The translations under genes and the position numbers were made by a program. This document shows positions 17,201-53,880 of a DNA stretch of 64,000 nt, one piece after another. Every line of letters starts with the position of its first letter. Positions within the stretch are counted from its first letter, which is position 1. The stretch is from Malus domestica (lineage: Eukaryota > Streptophyta > Magnoliopsida > Rosales > Rosaceae), in assembly GCF_042453785.1 (NCBI RefSeq), contig NC_091675.1, positions 51,594,501-51,658,500 of the forward strand, given 5' to 3'. The notes under the pieces were generated by a model. The model saw only the letters and a list, made by a program, of their open reading frames with translations. It did not search any database and was not told where the DNA came from.

Positions 17201-20200
17201 AACCAAAAACCTAACACACTGCAATTCAGTGTTTTTCCTTCTCCAATTTTTTTTTTAAAATGAATTTGATTTAAGTTTAATAATTGGATCCTTGTGATTC
17301 TGTGTAGGTCTTTTGGCCCTCCTTGATTCATGTAAAAAATTATTAGTTACTTATGGCTTGAGTTCTAGCAAACCTCATATAGAGGGAGAGCTCAACTGTG
17401 ATCCCCCTCCCACTTAGACCTTGGTCTTCTTTCAGCCAAAAAGAATAACACCATATAGTGGCTTATAATGGAGGTAGTTGATGAAAAAGTGCTTGCATGT
17501 GTATTGGATGCAGCATACAATTTGACCTGGCAGCCTCTTCATTGGTGCATGGTTGTCTAGGAGATCCTAAGCTTTGAAATTTGACCGCTGAGAGTATATG
17601 TAAAGCATGGCAGTAAAAATCTAAAATATTAAAAACTTGTCATGTTTTGATGTTTAAGGTATTGACCATTTTATTTTATACTCGTTGCAGCCACTTTGGG
17701 AACATATTTGATGAAGATTTCTTCATTCATGCTCTCAGAAATCACGTGAATGTGGTTAGGGAGCTCCCAGGGGATATACTTGAGCGATTTGACAATAATA
17801 TAAGCAACATTGTGAATCTGAGAGTGAAAGGTTGGTCAAGTCCAGCTTACTATCTTCAAAAGGTCCTCCCAAAGTTGGAACAAATGGGGTATGTGTCTTG
17901 CCTGTATTGTTGTTTGTAGTTAGTTTTTCTCCCATTTTCTTTCTTTCTTTCTATCTTTCTATATCTATATTATAATGTGTTTTACCTTTTAATTTTTTAA
18001 TTTTGAGAAATGTGCTTGCATTACATTGTATGTGACAGCTATATATAGTTTCTCTCAATCCGTTTTGCAGGGCCGTGCGAATTGCACCTTTTTCCAACAG
18101 ATTGGCTTATGCAGTTCCTTCAAAGGTCCAAAGGCTTAGATGCTTAGCAAATTTTGAAACACTGAGGTTTTCAAATTCTATAAGAACGCTTGCCGATAAA
18201 ATGGTTGAAAGAATGGTTAAAAGTAGCTCCCACAGAGGGGGAAAATATGTTTCAGTGCATCTTCGATTTGAAGAGGTGTGTAATTTTTGCTATTCTTATA
18301 AATGAATCGTTTCTGATTTCTTCTGTGACTATAATATCTTTTAAATGAACAATTTCTAACTTTTTATATCTCTTTGTCAAAGGACATGGTAGCATTTTCG
18401 TGCTGTGAATATGATGGTGGGGAGGAAGAGAAACACGAAATGGATATTGCTCGAGAAAGAAGTTGGAGAGGAAAATTCAGGAAAAGGGGTAGAGTAATAA
18501 GGCCAGGTGCAAATCGTGTGGATGGGAAGTGCCCTTTAACTCCATTAGAGGTATAATGCTATTCTTTATTTCTCTTCCAGTTTAAGCTGTGAATCCTTCT
18601 GCTACTTGGGTTTTTGAAAAATATTTTAAAACGTGGATAACTAAGTTTCTTTAAAAGAAAACTCTTGTTCAGTGTTCAGATATCTTTTGCTGATAATTTC
18701 TACGTTTGCTAATTTAATATTTATAGGGGTCGGTCTGGCTTGGCAAAATCTTAAGAGGCTTGTGAACCACTTGTAAATATTTTATTTAAGGAAAATGTAA
18801 ACAAATTTGTGTTGGGCTCTCATGCATATATCCGTCATAGTCAATATCCTCCAAAGCGCAAATACGTGTAAATATTATATTTTAGGAAAGCACAAACACT
18901 TGAATGTATTGGCCTCTTATGCATATATCTGTCATAGTCAAAATACTCCAAAGAACATGCTCAGGACCTTAGCTTAAGCTAGATTTTTTTAGCTTATCTA
19001 GTCTTCAAATTGTCTAGAGGTAATTATAGCTCTTGGTGAGTGGTTTTCAAGTTGCTTGCAAGGCTTGGCTTATTTGTACCCCTAGTTGCCAACTTTTGTT
19101 GTGGTCGTGCATGATTAGGACCAGGACTTCAGTCTTCAGCTCTAGTGGCTTACCTTTTTTTATGACTTAGTCCTCAGCTTTAGTGCCTTTCCTTTTTCTA
19201 TGACTTCCCTGTGAATATAATTACGAATGTTGCTGATCAAAGCATCTTCATGAATTGTAGGTTTGATGTTAATTATTAAGTTGTGATTGCAATGCTGGAT
19301 ATGATTGACCATTTTGATGCTGTTTATCTTTCTTTTGGTGGTGTAGTAGGATATGAGCTTGAAAGCAATTGGGGTTGCCACAAAATAGATTGGAGTCTAT
19401 TTAACAATTTGTGGTGTTTAACTTAAAATATGAGAACTGTGGTTGTAGCTGTAAATAGGGTTTACTAGTCAAATCTCTTCCCTTCAAAAAGGGTCGTTTA
19501 TCGTCATTTTGCACTTCACCGACTCTGTACTTCCAAATCTTGGTAGTCTTTTTCTGCTTTTTTGGGTTTTCAAAATCCCATGAATTTCGCAGTTAGCGTA
19601 GCTGACTTGCGAAACAGCATGCTTGACAGCTTGGCGTTGGTCTAGAATCTTAGGTTCCTGGAAAGTTTTGCTCTCTGGAAGATGAGTGTTTGGCGGAATC
19701 ACCATCTTTGTATGGTCTGGGTTGGGTAGGATGAGAGAAACCATGGAGTGGTGGGACTTGGGAGCAGCAAGATGGTGTGGGTGGGTAGGTTTGAGGTTGA
19801 GGGTCATGGCCCCATATTTTGCAAGTTCTTGAGAAAAAAAAAGGTTGTGCAGTTTAGATAGATTGCTTCTCTTTTGCTGGACAGTGGTTTTGCTTTTGGT
19901 GGAGGTGGTGGGAAAGAGAGGGTTTTGGCGGGAGGGGCATGGGGTGTGGGTGGGTAGGTTTGAGGTTGAGGGTCATGGCCCCATATTTTGCAAGTTCTTG
20001 AGAAAAAAAAAGGTTGTGCAGTTTAGATAGATTGCTTCTCTTTTGCTGGACAGTGGTTTTGCTTTTGGTGGAGGTGGTGGGAAAGAGAGGGTTTTGGCGG
20101 GAGGGGCATGGGGACTTTTTTTCCCCTCTGAAGGTTTTGTATTTCTGTTTAAATGAACAAAATGTTAATGTCACATCATCATTATTGTTTTGACTAATAC

Positions 20201-24409: not shown

Positions 24410-25530
24410 ATGGGGAGAGCACCTTGTTGTGAGAAAGCTCATACCAACAAAGGGGCATGGACGAAGGAGGAGGACCAGCGCCTCATCGACCACATCCGCC
24501 AGCACGGCGAGGGCTGCTGGCGCTCCCTCCCTAAAGCCGCCGGTACGTATATTCATCCATCAAGCAATTCAGTTTCAATTCAATATTCCTCCATATATGA
24601 TCTATATCGTTTAAAAAATTCGATTTTTGTTCATGTTAATTTTATAGGGTTGCTCAGGTGCGGCAAGAGTTGCAGGTTGAGATGGATAAACTACCTCCGC
24701 CCTGACCTCAAGCGCGGCAATTTCACACAAGAAGAAGATGAACTCATCATCAAGCTTCATAGCTTGCTTGGAAACAAGTAAGTAACCAAATCACCCACTT
24801 TTCTTCAAGCGGTGGATTGCCTACGTACGATTGATTTGTAATTTGATTGTATGTGTGTAGATGGTCATTGATTGCGGGCCGATTGCCGGGAAGAACCGAC
24901 AACGAGATCAAAAACTACTGGAACACACACATCAAGCGAAAGCTCATCAGCCGCGGCCTCGACCCTCAAACCCACCGCCCGCTTAACCAAACCACAACCG
25001 CCGCTGCTGCCGCCACGCCCGCCTCTCGCTTGGACCTGAGAAATCGTTCTTCGCCGTCGTCCGCGGTATTTGATCACAAAACCATCAAAAACAACAAATT
25101 TGAATTGTTGAAGCACCCCAAGATGGAGCATGAGTACTACAATTACAATATAGAATCGGAGGCCAATTGCAGCACCACTACCGGCAGCGGCACCACAACC
25201 GATGAAGACCAAAAACAACAGAACAAGTACAAGTGTTCTGATCTCAACTTGGATCTTTCAATTGGGCTAGAGCCGTTTCAGTCCGAGCCAACTCGGGCAT
25301 CGTCTGGGAACTCGGCCGAATCAAGACTGCAGCGGATCATAGCTCCTTCTAATAGTAATAATAATCATCAGTTTTTTGGGAAAGTGCAGTCGACTCAGGC
25401 GGTGGCGGTGGCTCAGGCGGTGTGTGTGTGCTGCCAGGTTGGATTTCAAAGCAGTGAGGCATGCAGCAATTGTCAGTGCACCAGTTACAATGGCTTCTAC
25501 AGATTTCACAGACCTGCTTTGAATCCATAG
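24410..25530 (+). CDS. R2R3-MYB transcriptional repressor, subgroup 4 (MYB4/MYB308-like)
   Basis: Three exons, 24410-24542, 24648-24777 and 24861-25530, join in frame to 310 aa. R2 (about 14-62) and R3 (about 67-114) are complete, starting [20 protein letters not shown]. The bHLH-interaction signature [DE]Lx2[RK]x3Lx6Lx3R is met by [20 protein letters not shown]. The three C-terminal subgroup-4 motifs are all visible: C1 [13 protein letters not shown] (116-128), the EAR repression motif [10 protein letters not shown] (215-224), and a Cys cluster CVCCQ..CSNCQC (276-294). Subgroup 4 proteins repress phenylpropanoid genes (cinnamate 4-hydroxylase, lignin and flavonoid steps), often recruiting TOPLESS through the EAR motif. 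The two intron positions are those usual for R2R3-MYB genes. Which paralogue (MYB4, 7, 32 or 308 type) cannot be fixed without a tree. Confidence 0.95.

Positions 25531-27082: not shown

Positions 27083-27120
<38 letters not shown>
27083..27120. repeat. (TA)n microsatellite
   Basis: About 19 TA units directly abut the foldback element that follows, and a shorter TATATATATATA tract lies on its other side. Confidence 0.9.
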
Positions 27121-27123
<3 letters not shown>

Positions 27124-27330
27124 AGCTTAAGAGGAGGGATCCCCATTTTTTCAAAAAAAATGGGGACACGCTCCCCACCGTTATATTGACTTTAATGAAA
27201 TTGTGTGGTTGAGATTAAAACACAGGCCATAGAATCTCAACCACAGGATTTCATTTAATTTAAATCCAACGGTGGAGAGCGTGTCCCCATTTTTTTGAAA
27301 AAATGGGGATCCCTCCCCTTAAGCAATTCC
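27121..27330. mobile_element. Near-perfect foldback MITE inserted in a TA tract
   Basis: The arms pair along almost the whole length: AGGGATCCCCATTTTTTCAA / its complement near 27292-27320, TGGGGACACGCTC, and GTTGAGATT against AATCTCAACCAC. TA repeats flank both sides, consistent with a TA target as used by Tc1/mariner relatives, though the ends are not classic Stowaway ends. Confidence 0.8.
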
Positions 27331-27631
27331 TATATATATATATGTGTGTATCACTTAGTCGAATTCCCGACGTAAGATTTTATTCTTCTGCACATACTGC
27401 ATCAAAAGATGTGAAATTGATATGACAGAGGAAAAAAAAATGTGGTGTGATAGTAGATACTTTCATTTAGGATATAGGAAGATGTGACATTAAATTAAGA
27501 TTGGATAATACGATTACAAAAATGAATTAGCGCTTCATAACATAGTATTATGAAAAAAATTGAAGTTCTACATTAAAATTAATTAACAATAACTCCTAAA
27601 TAATATATTTTTGTATATGTTTATATCGAGT

Positions 27632-28782
27632 TTAATAATAGGTCAAATCGGATAAGTGATCTATGTCGTCATAAGGTATTCGGAAGATAGCTCATATGCT
27701 AAAAAAACTCGGATTTAAACCCTTGTGGTGTACCCCGTTAACAAATTTAGTCCAAAAGTGATTTTTCAGTTAATTATTTGTTAATACATGGGTAAAATTG
27801 TATTTTGACATGTGCACTCTTCCTCGTCTCTTTGCTCTCTCTGTAATTTGAATTTTCACAAAACCAATTCTGAGAAAGCTGTCATTGAGATCGGCACCTC
27901 TCGTTGCTTTCTACGAACAGCAAGAATTGAAAGGTTTGAAAGACTGGCCTCTCGCAGGACATGCTCAATGTTCCAGTCCTCTATATCATTGGAGCTTTTT
28001 CATGGCAGACTTTAATGTGTGGTCTGCTTGGAATTCCTCCATCAACTGGAGTCATCCCACAGTCTCCAATGCATACAAAGAGTTTAGCTAATCTTAAACA
28101 CCAGGTAATCACACAAAACCTTTTCTTTATCTAACTGTATGGAAATATGCAAGATGGCTATCGACAAATGCAGACACCCTTGGTTTACCAGGAGGCCTCA
28201 TCTCGAGTATGACAAGAATATATATTTTGATATATTAAACATGTGGCTTTGATTTGCAATGGCAAGAAGGCCGTAGTTTAGAACATTTGATGATATTCAT
28301 TACCAGGTGATCATTGTGCCTTAATTGAAACACTTTTGTATTGCAGGGACTGAATGAATTAAAAGAATCAACCATCCAGGCAGCTTCGAGTATGGGAAAT
28401 TATATGGATGCACCAGTTGATGAGACAGTATTTGATATTGAGAAAGAGATTGATGATTTATTGCCGGGTGAGGTGAAGGAGCAGCGTCTCAGTAACCTGC
28501 TTCAAGCGGTATTGGTGGGCATGAGAGAGCAGAACGAGGAAGAGTGCACTATTAAGGGTAGCATTCTAAAATAACAATGAGTGAGCAGAGAGACGAGGAA
28601 GTGCACATGTCAAAGTACAATTTTACCCATGTATTAACAGATAGTTAACGGAAAAATCACATTTGGACTAAATTTGCTAACGGAGTACACCGCAGGAGTT
28701 TAAATCCGAGTTTTTTTAGCACATGGACTATCTTCCGAATATCTTATAACATGATCATTTATCCGATTTGGCCTTAATAATA
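27632..28782. mobile_element. Pack-MULE (Mutator-like, non-autonomous) with captured BOR gene fragment
   Basis: The element itself is 27641-28773. It has terminal inverted repeats of about 200 bp: the left end GGTCAAATCGGATAAGTGAT matches the complement of the right end, and the match continues to CATGTGCAC..TTCCTCGTCTC. It is flanked by a perfect 9-bp direct repeat TTAATAATA (27632-27640 and 28774-28782). Long inverted repeats with a 9-bp duplication define Mutator-like elements. There is no transposase; the interior is instead derived from a host boron-transporter gene, which makes it a Pack-MULE. Arm divergence is moderate (roughly 10-15 percent by eye), so it is not very recent. Confidence 0.9.
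27979..28530 (+). pseudogene. BOR1: Captured fragment of a BOR-type boron transporter gene
   Basis: Three host exons survive inside the Pack-MULE. About 27979-28104 encodes [20 protein letters not shown] then [12 protein letters not shown] and ends at a GT donor. About 28138-28206 encodes YGNMQDGYRQMQTPLVYQEA and ends at a GT donor. From 28347, after a TTGCAG acceptor, comes GLNELKESTIQAASSMGNYM, followed by DETVFDIEKEIDDLLPGEVK and KEQRLSNLLQAVLVG. These are consecutive landmarks of plant BOR borate exporters (HCO3- transporter family) near the C-terminal half. The start of the middle exon is missing, and family sequence ends after LLQAVLVG, where the element's own sequence resumes. Introns are retained, so capture was from DNA rather than mRNA. 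Only a fragment of a roughly 700-residue protein remains. Confidence 0.88.
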
Positions 28783-46888: not shown

Positions 46889-47282
46889 CACTTGGAAAAA
46901 CTGGCACCTGAGCCGCAAGACCTGGCGCCGAAGTTCTAACAAACGCATGCCACCACTATGTAGCTCGAGTTACACAAACATCAGGAGGGTCGGTCCTATC
47001 ATTCCATAGTTTGCCGCTCCTTGCTCCCCACAAAGACCTACAAATCATGAGGAAAAGATCAAAAATTTTCTTTGGAACTAACCTCGCAACATCATCCATC
47101 CACAACAGGAAGTTAGGATGTTGGGTATTCCTCAATAAAGGTCCAAGACTTGAAGCCAACCAAGCACATTTTGCAAAAGGGCCTTCTTCCATAAGGACAC
47201 ATCCCAAATACGTAGTTATATGCTGCTTTGCCAGGATTGCTCGGGCAGGTATGAAATCATTGATGAGTCTCCATAAACATAC
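46889..47282 (-). mobile_element. LINE middle part: zf-RVT region
   Basis: Minus-strand coding for VCLWRLINDFIPARAILAKQ, TYLGCVLMEEGPFAKCAWLA and WMDDVARLVPKKIFDLFLMI belongs to the zinc-binding region between reverse transcriptase and RNase H of plant LINEs. The usual Cys before the ALxHC stretch is replaced by Met-Glu-Glu, one sign of decay. The first 160 bases (47123-47282) are repeated beyond the Copia element at 53605-53764. Confidence 0.8.
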
Positions 47283-50200
47283 CTGCACTTGTAGCAGAAC
47301 CCGAAGCCATAGCCGCAAACTTTCAGTGTACCTTCTCTTCTCTCGCAGGTTATCAAGAGCTCGACTTATAAATAGGATTAAGTCTAGAATATCAACATTC
47401 ACCTGTGAGAAGAGAGGCCACTATATATATACATATAATCTTTACCATAACTGATTAGGATTCCCTATCAAAATCCATGTAGGAAACAAATCTTGTCTCC
47501 TTGTTCTGATCTTCATGCTGTACAGAATCCCTCTTCATAAGGGATTAGCATTCCTTTTATTATCAAGACTTTTCTATCCAATTGAACACATATAGCCGGT
47601 CCTAAAACTCCTCTATCTCATACTCATATTCTTACATTCTCCCACTTGAGTATGAGAACAGTTTTAAGTACTCAGCCAAGTCAATTATGTGCAGATAGAA
47701 GTGATCACTAGTCTTGTTAATAAAATTTCAATCACAACCAGCTATCATACATCTCAAAATGCAGAACGCTTGTAACTGTATTACCACAATAAAGCAAACA
47801 GGTTTTCAAGAGTTACAGACATTCAATTTGTATGCTCAACGTTGTGAACTTGATCAATATCAGTAATAAGCAAAATAATTTGCTCCCACTATTTCAAATC
47901 ATTGTCAGCAAGATGTAAAACAAATCTTTGCTTCAAAACAATGCATGAATCAACAATTCATCACTAAATGCTTTAAACGGAGAAACCATTATTAAAGCAA
48001 CAAATGAATTATATCAAACTTTATTTTGTTCGAAACAATAGATCATCATAACTGATCTCAATTCGATAAAATAAACAAAACAAACTAACAAACATAATAC
48101 TATCCAGCCATAAGATTTTAAATTTGAAATTTGAAACCTGTCTATATCACCACACCAGCTCTCTGAACTTCACAGCAGCGAATAAACAGTCATAATAAGA
48201 CTAACGAATTACTCCCACTGATCAAAGGATTCAAGTATTCCCATCCGAGAGACATGCGTTTTAAATACTCCAATCGGCAATGCTTTAGTCAAAGGATCCG
48301 CAATCATTACATTTGTGCTTAAGTGCTCCACCTGAATTGCTCATTCTCTAACCTTTTCTCGGACCTTAAGGAATTTTACATCCATCAGTCTTGAAGCTGA
48401 AGTTCTCTTATTGTTCTTGCTAAAAAATACTGCAGAATTGTTATCACAATACATCATGATAGGCCTTTGCACAGAATTTACAACTTTCAAATCTGTCACA
48501 AAGTTTTTCAACCATACAGCTTGTTTCATTCCTTCAAAACAAGCTATAAATTCTGCCTCCATTGTCGATGTTGCGATGATAGTCTGTTTTGCACTTTTCC
48601 AGGAGACTGCACCACCACTTAGCATAAAGATATAACCTCCAGTAGATTTTCTATCATCTACATCACCGGCTAAATCAGAATCAGTGTAGCCAACTAACTC
48701 CAATAGCTCATTCCTGCCATAAACCAACATATAATTCTTGGTTCTTTGCAAGTACCTCAAAACTTTCTTTGCTGCTACCCAATGTGCCTCTCCTGGATTT
48801 GCTTGAAACCTGCCCAACATTCCAACTATAAAAGCTATGTCCGGTCTAGTGCAGATAGTTGTATACATCAAACTTCCCACCAATGAAGCATAAGGCTTAT
48901 TCTTCATTTTATCTATCTCCATAGGCGTCTTGGGACATTGAGCCTTTGAGAATCTGTCTCCCTTGTTGACTGGTACTTCACCATTACTGCAGCTTGACAT
49001 ATTGAACCTCATGAGTACCCTTTCTATGTATCCCTTTTGTGATAAACCGAGTAAATTCCTTGATCTATCTCGAACAATTTCAATACCAAGTACATAGTGT
49101 GCTTCACCAAGGTCCTTCATTTCAAAATTCTTACTGAGCATGGTCTTAGTGTCTTTGAGCAGCTTCATATTAGAACTGGCAAGAAGGATGTCATCGACAT
49201 ACAACACTAAAAATATAAAATTAGTGCCTGAAAATTTAACATAGATGCAATCATCTAATTTGTTTTCCACAAAACCTTGCCTTGTAACTACTTGATCAAA
49301 CTTTAAGAACCATTGTCTTGATGCCTGTTTAAGCCCGTAGATTGACTTGTTAAGTTTACAAACCATGTCTTCTTTCCCCTTTTCAACAAATCCAGGAGGT
49401 TGCTTCATATAAATGTCTTCGGCCAGCTCACCATTAAGAAAGGCAGTTTTAACATCCATTTGATGCAGTTCCAGATTGAAATGAGCAACAAGTGCCATTA
49501 TGACCCTCATAGAATCTTTGGAAGAGACGGGAGAAAAGGTGTCATTGTAATCCACCCCTTCCCTCTGAGTGAATCCCTTGGCAACTAACCTTGCCTTGTA
49601 CCTTTCAATATTGCCGTGAGCATCTCTTTTGGTCTTATAAACCCATTTACACCCAATAGCCTTGAATTGAGGATTGGAATCCACTAATGTCCATACTTCG
49701 TTTTTGGACATCGACTCCAATTCCTCCTTCATTGCACTGTGCCATAAGGATTGTTGAGAACTATTCATGGCCTGAGAATAAGTGAGAGGGTCATCCACAT
49801 CGCCAAAATCAAACTCATGCTCCTGCAAATAAACATAGTCATTTGACATTGTGGTTTTTCTGATTCTTGAAGATTGTCTCAATGGTAATGTCGGATCATG
49901 GAGAACTTCAGTGCTCGGATTCATTGGTGCATCATTAGTTGGAGTTGGATCCCCTTGTTGCTGTGGTTGGGACCCAAGATCAATTTCCATTCTGTCAATA
50001 TTTTTTGGACAGTCTAATTGTTCTTCCTCCAATTCAATCATGGAAGTAGGAGTGATCAACATTTCTTTGTAAGAATTACTGCAAAAAAACTTCTCATTTT
50101 GATCAATCTCTTCAAAAATGAAACTGCCCTGTGATAAGTCTGCAATATCTTGATCTTCAAAGAACCTGGCATTATGAGTTTCATGAATCCTGGTGTGAGC

Positions 50201-53200
50201 TTGAGGACAATAAAACTTGAAGCCTTTAGATTTCTCTGAGTAGCCAATGAAGTAGCATGATTCTGTCCTTGAGTCCAATTTCTTCTCATTTGGATTGTAA
50301 ATTCTAGCCTCAGCTTTACATCCCCAAACATGGAAATGACTAAAACTGGGCTTCCTGCCATTCCAGATTTCAAAAGGTGTTGATGAAACCGCTTTGCTCG
50401 GAACTCTGTTCAGTATATAAGTGGCTGTCTTCAATGCTTCACCCCATAGGAATCCTGGTAACTTTGATCTTGTCATCATGCTTCGTACCATTCCAATCAG
50501 AGTTCGATTCCTCCTTTCTGAAACTCCGTTTTGCTGTGGTGTTCCTGGTGTAGTGTATTGAGCAACAATGCCTTGTTGTTCAAGATAAAGCGCAAACGGA
50601 CCCTTGTGTTGTCCAGCCTCACTGTACCTGCCAAAATACTCTCATCCTCTATCCGATCTAACAATCTTAATGGTCTTGCCTAACTGTTTTTCTACCTCAG
50701 TTTTATAAACCTTGAAATAATCTAGGACATATGATTTCTCACTGATTAAATAAGTGTAACAAAACCTTGAAAAATCATCAATAAAGTTGACAAAATAAGA
50801 ATTACCGCAAATAGTTTTGGTTGGAAAAGGACCGCAGATGTCAGTGTGTATAATCTCTAGCAAATTCTGACTCCTTTTGGCATCTAACTTTCTAGAATTA
50901 GTCATCTTCCCTTTTGCACAATCAACACACTCAATTGCAGTAGCAAGATTTAATTCAGGGATCAACTGAGCTTTGGACAGTTTTAAAACTCTTTCTTTGG
51001 ATATGTGGCCTAACCTCTTGTGCCAAAGGAGGAAAGAATCATCACTGCAGTGCATCCTCTTAGTGCTGATGTTTAAAACATGTTGATTTGGGGACTCCAA
51101 AGTACAATTTAGACACCACAGATTGTCACTCAAATATGCAGTTCCCAAAACACAATCTAGGTGGTTCTTTTCAAAAAATTTTAAACTTTCATCATCACCT
51201 AGAAAGGCAAAACCATCTTTGACAATTCTTGAAGCAGAGATCAGATTTCTCCTCATTTTAGGCACATAAAGCACATCCTTTAGTTTTAGTATAAAACCAG
51301 AAGACAATTTTAAACACACCATACCTATAGCTTCTACCGCAACTTTAGTACCTTCTCCCACAAAGACATTATAATTTTTAAAACCAGTTTGTTTTGATTT
51401 CACAAAACCCTCCAAAGAATTTGAAATGTGAACTGAGCAACCGGTATCAAACCACCAAGAATTCACAGGGATTTCAATCAAATTAGACTCAACACAGACA
51501 TTGACATTTTCTACACCCTTACTTTTAAGATAGTCCTGAAAAACTTGACAATCTTTTCTTAAGTGTCCTTTAGTTTTGCAGAAAAAACATCTGAGTTTGG
51601 CAATATTTTTAGTTTTGACCATAAGATTGCTAGATCCCTTAATAGAGTCTTTTACTTTGGCAGATGCAGTAGACTTAAAAGAGGTTACCTTGGTATTGTT
51701 GTTCTTACCAGAGTGTCCAGATAATGATTTGAATGATTTCTTCCCCTTGTCTGGTTGCACAAAATTCACCGTTTCAGTTTCTTTCCCTCTTTCTTGCTTG
51801 TCTAGCCTCTTCTTGAACGCACTGTGCAATTAGCTCATCAACATCCCAGTTCTTGTCTTGAGTGTTGTAAGACACCTTTAACTGACTATATTTGTTTGGA
51901 AGAGCTTGAAGGATCATGAAAACTAACTGTTTTTCACCAATATTAACATCTAAAGAATTTAATTTCTCAGCTGCATCAGTCATTTTCAAGATATGGTCTC
52001 TGATTGACCCTATGCCATCAATCTTGTATGTGGTCAGCATTGCCATATAGTGACTGATTTCTGCCTTTTGAGATTCTTTGAACTTTCTTTCAATTGCTTG
52101 TAAATACTCAATAGCTAGTTCATGCTTCTTGATTCCACCGCGAACAGTATCAGTCATAGCACTTTCAAGTATAGAAAGTGCCACTTTGTTTGCTCTGACC
52201 CATCTATCTGCATCAGCTTTCTCAGCCCTTGTACTTTGATCAGTCAGAATCGGCTTGGGAGTTTCAAGGGCTATGTCAAAGTCATTGAGTGTCAATAAGA
52301 GCCCAATCTCACGTCTCCATTTCTTGTAGTTGCTTCCCCCTGTGAGAACAGGAATGTTTGCCAAGTTCATAGTCCGGAACGATATTGCAGATGATGAACC
52401 TGCAATGAAATCACAATTTGAACTTATTAGTTCCTGATTTCATCTCAACATCACCTTGCACATTATGACTATAATCATAGACCCATATATATAGTCTTAA
52501 TCAACAATCTGTTGATAAGCATACATAGAGTGGAATGATTAAGCAAGAACTTGAAAAACGATCCGCTGATTTCTGCCATATATCCTTAGACACCAAATGG
52601 TTTAATGGTGTCTCATACATGTAAAAGGCATTTTGAAAGTGATCAAAGAAAGCACCGAATGGTTAATAAGGTCTGTATCTCTACTTTAAAAGATCAAAAT
52701 ACATCTGCATATGACTTACGTTTGCAGTCGATGAACTGGGAAAGTAAACACATTCATCTTTACATTTTACCAAAAGATTCAAAGCAATTAACAACATACC
52801 TTTTAATCTTTATAACTCAAATTCACGAATCGGGCAGCGGAAGCGATTTAGAATTTGAAAATAGAAGATTTGAGTTTTGGAAAGGAAAAACCCAGATCGA
52901 TGTTTATGGAAGAAAGCATTGCTTTCTTCAATCTGGAAAACCTTCACTCGATAATAACTTAATGGTTCCTTTGACGGTTCATTATTACCAACGCTTCTTT
53001 TATTTCCTCCAGAACCGGACTTCGATTCTTCGTAAGAGTTAAAAAAAAAAAAAAAAAATTTTTATTTTTTATTTTTTATAGTAACATACAAAATTTCTCC
53101 TTTACTGATCGAATTCATGTTGATATGTCTTGTGGCTCTGATACCACATGTAAGACCCTTAATCATAATCACCAAGACCAAAACATGAACTACAACTTAG

Positions 53201-53604
53201 AGAGAAATATTCAACTTATGTATCTGAGAAACACAGGAAGAAGAACATACCTGCACTTGTAGCAGAACCCGAAGCCATAGCCGCAAACTTTCAGTGTACC
53301 TTCTCTTCTCTCGCAGGTTATCAAGAGCTCGACTTATAAATAGGATTAAGTCTAGAATATCAACATTCACCTGTGAGAAGAGAGACCACTATATATAAAC
53401 ATATAATCTTTACCATAACTGATTAGGATTCCCTATCAAAATCCATGTAGGAAACAAATCTTGTCTCCTTGTTCTGATCTTCATGCTGTACAGAATCCCT
53501 CTTCATAAGGGATTAGCATTCCTTTTATTATCAAGACTTTTCTATCCAATTGAACACATATAGCCGGTCCTAAAACTCCTCTATCTCATACTCATATTCT
53601 TACA
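47283..53604 (-). mobile_element. Ty1/Copia LTR retrotransposon, young, coding region broken, nested in the LINE
   Basis: Minus orientation. The right (5') LTR spans 53149-53604 (456 bp, TGTAAGA..TCTTACA termini). The left (3') LTR copy is shorter, about 353 bp (47284-47636). A primer-binding site TGGTATCAGAGCC lies at 53146-53134, next to the 5' LTR. A purine tract AAGTGGGAGAA lies next to the 3' LTR. Over the 353 bp they share, the LTRs differ at only about two positions, which implies a recent insertion (well under a million years at usual rates). The coding block lies at 48341-52370. The element is broken, with about two breaks in its polyprotein. It is flanked by a 160-bp duplication of LINE sequence instead of the usual 5 bp. 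Confidence 0.9.
48341..52370 (-). pseudogene. Copia gag-pol block (broken)
   Basis: Domains appear in Copia order on the minus strand. First is gag, beginning MNLANIPVLTGGSNYKKWRR. Next come a CCHC zinc knuckle (CFFCKTKGHLRKDC), an aspartic protease motif (WWFDTGCSVHIS), the GAG-pre-integrase region (LWHKRLGHISKERVL) and the integrase core (IHTDICGPF). Last are reverse transcriptase with the YVDDILLA box and RNase H with YTDSDLAGD and the KSTGGYIF motif. The order INT before RT identifies Ty1/Copia. The reading frame is interrupted about twice, so no full polyprotein can be made. Treated as a fossil. Confidence 0.9.
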
Positions 53605-53880
53605 GGGTATTCCTCAATAAAGGTCCAAGACTTGAAGCCAACCAAGCACATTTTGCAAAAGGGCCTTCTTCCATAAGGACACATCCCAAATACGTAGTTA
53701 TATGCCGCTTTGCCAGGATTGCTCGGGCAGGTATGAAATCATTGATGAGTCTCCATAAACATACTTGAACTTTTGGTGGGACATTTGCATTCCACAACCT
53801 GGACCATAACTTGTTTGATACCATCTGTGCTGATGATGAGGCTCCAAGGTTAGTTGGCTGCAACCAGTTTAATGTTGCAT
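53605..53880 (-). mobile_element. LINE 5'-most surviving part and repeated 160-bp segment
   Basis: The minus strand encodes LWSRLWNANVPPKVQVCLWR and continues into the same zf-RVT segment seen at 46889-47282, up to the Copia LTR. Positions 53605-53764 repeat 47123-47282 with one mismatch. Upstream (beyond about 53880) LINE coding is no longer recognisable, so the LINE was 5'-truncated. Confidence 0.75.

Follow-up and report, generated by a model that had tools for sequence, protein, structure and literature searches.

A Mutator-like transposon in apple carrying pieces of a BOR boron-transporter gene

Positions 27632–28782 of a 64,000-nucleotide stretch of the Malus domestica genome (the whole stretch analysed, hereafter the window) combine long inverted repeats with coding sequence resembling BOR boron transporters. 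This raises the questions of what kind of element this is, from which gene its BOR sequence came and whether that sequence still has a role. Our analysis confirmed that the locus is a non-autonomous Mutator-like transposon (Pack-MULE), as a sequence-only reading had proposed, and allowed us to place the steps by which it was assembled and eroded in order.

Structure of the element and of the captured segment

The ends of the element consist of terminal inverted repeats (TIRs) bordered by a target-site duplication (TSD):

27632–27640, no strand: left TSD, TTAATAATA, same letters as 28774–28782
27641–27840, + strand: left TIR, starting with GGTCAAATCGG, delimited by local alignment of the arms
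28579–28773, - strand: right TIR, delimited by arm alignment and comparison of copies
28774–28782, no strand: right TSD, TTAATAATA

The element body between the TSDs (27641–28773) is 1133 bp long. In the alignment of the arms, of approximately 200 bp as had been claimed from the sequence alone, 188 of 207 aligned bases were identical (91%) and a further 10 positions were gaps; its local score of 281 was far above the maximum scores of 30 in 500 shuffled arms and 80 in 476 random placements in the window. The perfect 9-bp TSD was also borne out, both flanks reading TTAATAATA. Exact 9-mer agreement between the flanks occurred in 8 of 90,000 position pairs, the true TSD included in this count, and a 9/9 match was obtained in 11 of 19,881 random pairs when 25 offsets were allowed, the TSD of the window copy being at offset 0. 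An extension of the TIR to 28563–28578 was rejected as chance, since these bases sit in a scar private to the window copy and match other repeats. The only long inverted repeats of the element are its ends, and the body is largely explained by the TIRs, the BOR segment, a remnant of a second gene and the scar. No transposase was found inside the element, either in the six frames inspected by eye or with 6 interior peptides searched against Pfam, and there was no MULE-domain match at the window locus among the genome matches listed. Rfam gave no match within the window, and in viral contigs no relatives of exon D were confirmed (68 pattern matches) and no relatives of the TIR core were found.

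The captured segment is composed of the following exon and intron pieces:

27952–27998 (coding 27958–27998), + strand: BOR exon piece A, the first 14 codons of the exon and the last 6 bases before it
27994–27998, + strand: GCTTT, 5-bp microhomology at the A/B join, where 211 parental bases are skipped, equal in C17 and C9
27999–28104, + strand: end of the parental intron and complete BOR exon B (28009–28104, TLMCGLLG...LKHQ)
28105–28134, + strand: 5' part of the next BOR intron, from comparison with parents and copies
28133–28136, + strand: deletion junction with shared AACT, 120 bases missing relative to C17, exon C start included
28135–28206, + strand: 3' part of BOR exon C, LYGNMQDGYRQMQTPLVYQEASSR
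28207–28346, + strand: BOR intron, GT...AG with both ends kept, with 16–17 bases fewer than its counterparts in the sister copies and parental genes
28347–28520, + strand: 5' part of BOR exon D, GLNELKES...LLQAVLVG

In phmmer searches against the PDB, interior peptides matched plant Boron transporter 1 (BOR1; entries 5l25, 8teg and 8tej): the first exon pair with an E value of 5.9e-17, the third exon piece at residues 397–417 (E 7.7e-4) and the last exon at residues 419–475 (E 1.9e-19). Against Pfam, one of the 6 interior peptides gave a single sub-threshold match to HCO3_cotransp (E 0.038). Piece A is 96–98% identical to the C17 and C9 BOR genes and contributes a weak stretch at PDB BOR1 residues 285–304, and exon B corresponds to residues 339–374 and is followed by a splice donor, GTAATC, at 28105. 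The sequence-only reading was therefore right about the BOR homology and also about the retention of introns, since intron ends and splice GT/AG are present in the segment. Its count of three exons, in contrast, has to be revised to four captured exon pieces because it missed 27958–27998, and this fourth piece rules out a segment of three exons only.

Two regions flank the captured segment within the element, and one of them contains sequence of another gene:

27841–27951, + strand: left subterminal region, lacking 17 bases present in the four sister copies
about 27888–27926, + strand: second-gene remnant, with relatives at C2:1650087 and C15:12469616
28521–28584, + strand: scar private to the window copy, from comparison with four sister copies

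Members of the TIR family that have no BOR sequence also contain the left subterminal region as far as about 27926. The family was found with other interiors, and 5 of the 6 BOR-less sister loci examined carry a longer fragment of the second gene, the likely parents of which (C2:1650087 and C15:12469616) match the fragments at 83–86%. With this remnant in addition to the BOR segment, the element is thus a chimera of two gene sources. Assignment of 27854–27957 to a BOR intron was rejected, as most of this stretch is shared with other MULEs of the family and part of it with the second gene that has relatives on C2 and C15. The second-gene protein (beginning MSWLFSSP) may resemble BSD-domain proteins; it had no Pfam or PDB match at E<=1, and the subterminal peptides had no match in the PDB.

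At the other side of the segment, the window copy alone lacks approximately 12 bases of exon D and carries 28523–28584 as an insertion. The first part of this insertion, 28523–28549, duplicates the inner TIR tail; it aligns to the left arm with a score of 42 and to the right arm with a score of 29, and none of 1000 shuffles reached 42. The remaining 35 bases (28550–28584) match two places on C6, one on C4 and one on C5 at 94–97%. This stretch resembles the beginning of an LTR of copia type, and the sequence neighbouring the C6 and C4 places resembles, when read by eye, a junction between a copia-type retroelement and its LTR. MULEs with multiple TIRs, as described in PMC3310237, likewise have extra TIR-derived sequence in one end; however, the window copy has only 27 bases of it, in a private scar, and no full second TIR.

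Parental genes, sister copies and order of losses

We searched the genome from which the window comes (651 Mb, 19 contigs) for relatives of the segment and of the TIRs. A protein search with exon D found 13 places, 5 in element copies and 8 outside, the latter pairing as C9/C17, C13/C16, C6/C14 and a weaker C17/C9. Alignment of the BOR segment with the BOR genes of the same genome, the check suggested by the sequence-only reading, identified C17:34097724–34098637 and C9:35209827–35210777, which match only the captured part, in three blocks of 91–98% identity. Both genes are open through the exons examined, and their introns differ by a distance of 0.081. To choose between them we used the 12 exon sites at which C17 and C9 differ, polarised with C13/C16 as the outgroup: at 3 sites the elements go with C17 (one of these can be read solely in the copy with the exon C start, and at another 4 of 5 copies have the C17 state), at 1 site they go with C9, and 8 were uninformative (five private to C17 or C9 and three with an outgroup unlike both). 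In the seven-row alignment, piece A was misaligned to the parental intron and diagnostic sites before 28001 were set aside; the 18 C17-like sites included 3 such artefacts (27975, 27977 and 27979), leaving 15 C17-like against 9 C9-like sites. The polarised exon sites weakly favour C17 over C9 as the probable source gene.

The same BOR segment occurs in four sister copies, C7:24845446–24846570, C15:24100101–24101205, C15:51347404–51348446 and C15:37905122–37906376. With the best of 25 offsets, four of the five copies have 9/9 TSDs and the C7 copy has 8/9. The Pack-MULE reading is upheld by the TIRs, the TSD, the BOR genes elsewhere and the four sister copies, three of which have a 9/9 TSD and one an 8/9 TSD. 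The TIRs themselves, for which the sequence-only reading had proposed a genome search, match many genomic places. Scoring 40 of 542 candidates gave at least 122 matches with E<=0.001, a number that counts matches and not elements, since one arm can match twice.

The A/B join at GCTTT and the left join are the same in all five copies, so that the capture junctions do not differ among them. The 120-base deletion in exon C (155 bases relative to C9) is common to four copies, and the missing sequence is kept in C15:37905122–37906376 (region 37904622–37906876), which retains parental intron and the exon C start and thereby helps to order the losses. Since this copy retains the 120 bases, the exon C start must have been lost after capture. 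The earlier description of a middle exon without its start therefore holds for the window copy, but as a later deletion common to four of five copies. Similarly, family sequence stops after LLQAVLVG in the window copy, as had been stated, but in the other four it continues into the parental exon for approximately 12 more bases.

Of the variable sites in the captured segments of the five copies, 56 are singletons and 4 are shared; the uncorrected pairwise difference among copies is 0.046. In a tree of the segment, internal branches were at most 0.004 and terminal branches 0.02–0.03, supports were low, and the four copies sharing the deletion were not grouped. This star-like divergence, with its singletons and near-zero internal branches, leads us to infer that the copies multiplied soon after capture.

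Both internal joins fall at short shared sequences (GCTTT and AACT), which suggests that template switching or end joining produced them. Breakpoint microhomology is also reported for animal Pack-TIRs (PMC8277862); here, in contrast, the element belongs to a plant MULE family and both short-homology joins lie within the captured segment.

Origin of the copies and possible roles

Altogether, we consider it very probable that a MULE captured BOR sequence a single time, was multiplied in a short burst by a transposase supplied from outside, and has since decayed without detectable coding constraint. A non-autonomous Mutator-like element that already had the second-gene remnant aboard would have copied a BOR stretch with its introns, more likely from the C17 gene than from the C9 gene. 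At a short stretch of shared sequence, 211 bases would have been passed over, as expected from gap repair with template switching. A transposase made elsewhere would then have moved the chimeric element soon after capture in a short burst that left at least five copies with 9-bp TSDs (8/9 in one of them), and these copies would subsequently have decayed, losing pieces through deletions and repair scars. The genome contains at least 151 matches to the MULE transposase domain PF10551 (150 of 482 candidates scored), none of them within 20 kb of a TIR in a by-eye comparison among the matches listed for both. A candidate autonomous element at C11:12356527–12366063, delimited by a 9.4-kb TIR pair, was rejected when its enclosed ORFs, read in translation, looked like those of a gypsy-type retroelement.

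One observation against a single capture is that differences among copies per site reach 0.11–0.14 in the TIRs and left subterminal region and 0.046 in the captured segment. This 2.4- to 3-fold excess counts against the scenario because single capture followed by transposition predicts none unless the ends mutate faster or are exchanged. It favours a different history in which gene conversion or end exchange carried the BOR segment into MULEs that had already diverged, and the patched TIR at the right end of the window copy would fit such a history as well. However, much of the excess is of the C>T/G>A type (0.068–0.099 per C/G site per copy in the TIRs and subterminal region vs 0.022 in the segment). 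Methylated ends would explain this part but not the other changes, which are also 2.0–2.5 times higher there than in the segment; the remainder may come from family members having exchanged their ends. In addition, 27927–27957, beside the BOR join, is common to all five copies, whereas other family members stop at 27926 among the matches listed. Taken together, we regard spread of the segment among diverged elements as unlikely and retain a single capture followed by a burst.

We also asked whether the captured exons are maintained for a protein. Over 112 codons, the five copies differ from their majority sequence by 31 nonsynonymous and 14 synonymous changes, with 73.8% nonsynonymous changes expected (p 0.28); the same comparison of the two BOR genes gave 5 nonsynonymous and 8 synonymous changes (p 0.008). 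The changes in the copies thus fit neutrality, without detectable coding constraint. The C15:51347404 copy contains a frameshift and two stop changes, and the C15:37905122 copy has 11 nonsynonymous and 0 synonymous changes, some of them beside the alignment gap in exon C. The element does not constitute a functional BOR transporter gene, as it contains exons only in part and the changes of its copies are compatible with neutrality. A short chimeric protein could be predicted if exon B were spliced to exon D, skipping the broken exon C: the resulting 124-codon frame (27958–28104 joined to 28347–28574) is open, with GT and AG retained at the joins, and ends in TIR-tail and scar sequence. We find such a protein very hard to credit, given that the frame takes intron sequence as codons over the A/B join and that the changes fit neutrality, with a frameshift and stops in the C15:51347404 copy. 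Nothing in the sequence suggests a protein product of the element, which probably has no present function.

A role at the RNA level would instead draw on the identity of the segment to the two BOR genes (91–98% in three blocks), by which transcripts or siRNAs from the five copies might target the mRNA of the parental BOR gene or the locus itself. The precedent comes from maize, where gene-bearing transposable elements are described in PMC13317346 as siRNA reservoirs able to silence donor genes. The coding changes in the copies fit neutrality, which has no direct bearing on a role exerted through RNA, and the BOR segment is not a hairpin arm because the only long inverted repeats are the element ends. 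We judge an effect of this kind improbable. It would be a far bolder conjecture, to which we give very little credence, that the five copies jointly form a small-RNA source tuning boron transport and that the low divergence of the segment reflects such use or repeated conversion from the parental gene.

The BOR-carrying element is a well-preserved case of a familiar type. Gene pieces are known to be shuffled by Pack-MULEs. Rice has more than 3000 of these elements (PMC8903248 and PMC13317346). The window element shares with them long TIRs, a 9-bp TSD, gene fragments with a parent elsewhere, several copies and no transposase found inside, and there is no categorical difference, the parent here being a BOR transporter. 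Among the open-licence papers listed on Pack-MULEs and boron transporters we found no report of a Pack-MULE with a BOR parent (one paper mentions both, in unrelated contexts), nor was the window element found among them, papers on apple and Malus Pack-MULEs included. How Pack-MULEs capture sequence was described in 2012 as still to be understood (PMC3310237, section 4.2). The locus provides an ordered series (two parental genes, the join in five copies, the deletion in four and the scar in one) in which each breakpoint is located to within a few bases, and it is useful as a worked example, not as a new type of system.

Neighbouring features in the window

Several further features lie in the window outside the element. 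A MYB gene is located at 24410–25530, approximately 2 kb upstream of the element, with a Pfam Myb_DNA-binding match for 24410–24781. Between the two, at 27120–27335, TA repeats accompany a foldback that forms a near-perfect palindrome (-133 kcal/mol as RNA, z -18.7) and looks like a MITE. Two exact tandem copies of approximately 170 bases each occupy 19774–20113, and are either very recent or an assembly effect.

On the minus strand, 47276–53604 contains a copia-type retroelement with two 361-base repeats that are 99.4% identical. The target duplication of a retroelement is usually a handful of bases; this one is flanked by a direct duplication of approximately 160 bases (47123–47290 and 53605–53772). 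Each LTR copy is preceded by the sequence AACATACC, which belongs to the target side for the left copy and to the internal side for the right one. The duplication and the placement of AACATACC hint at what may be an unusual insertion route for a copia-type element.
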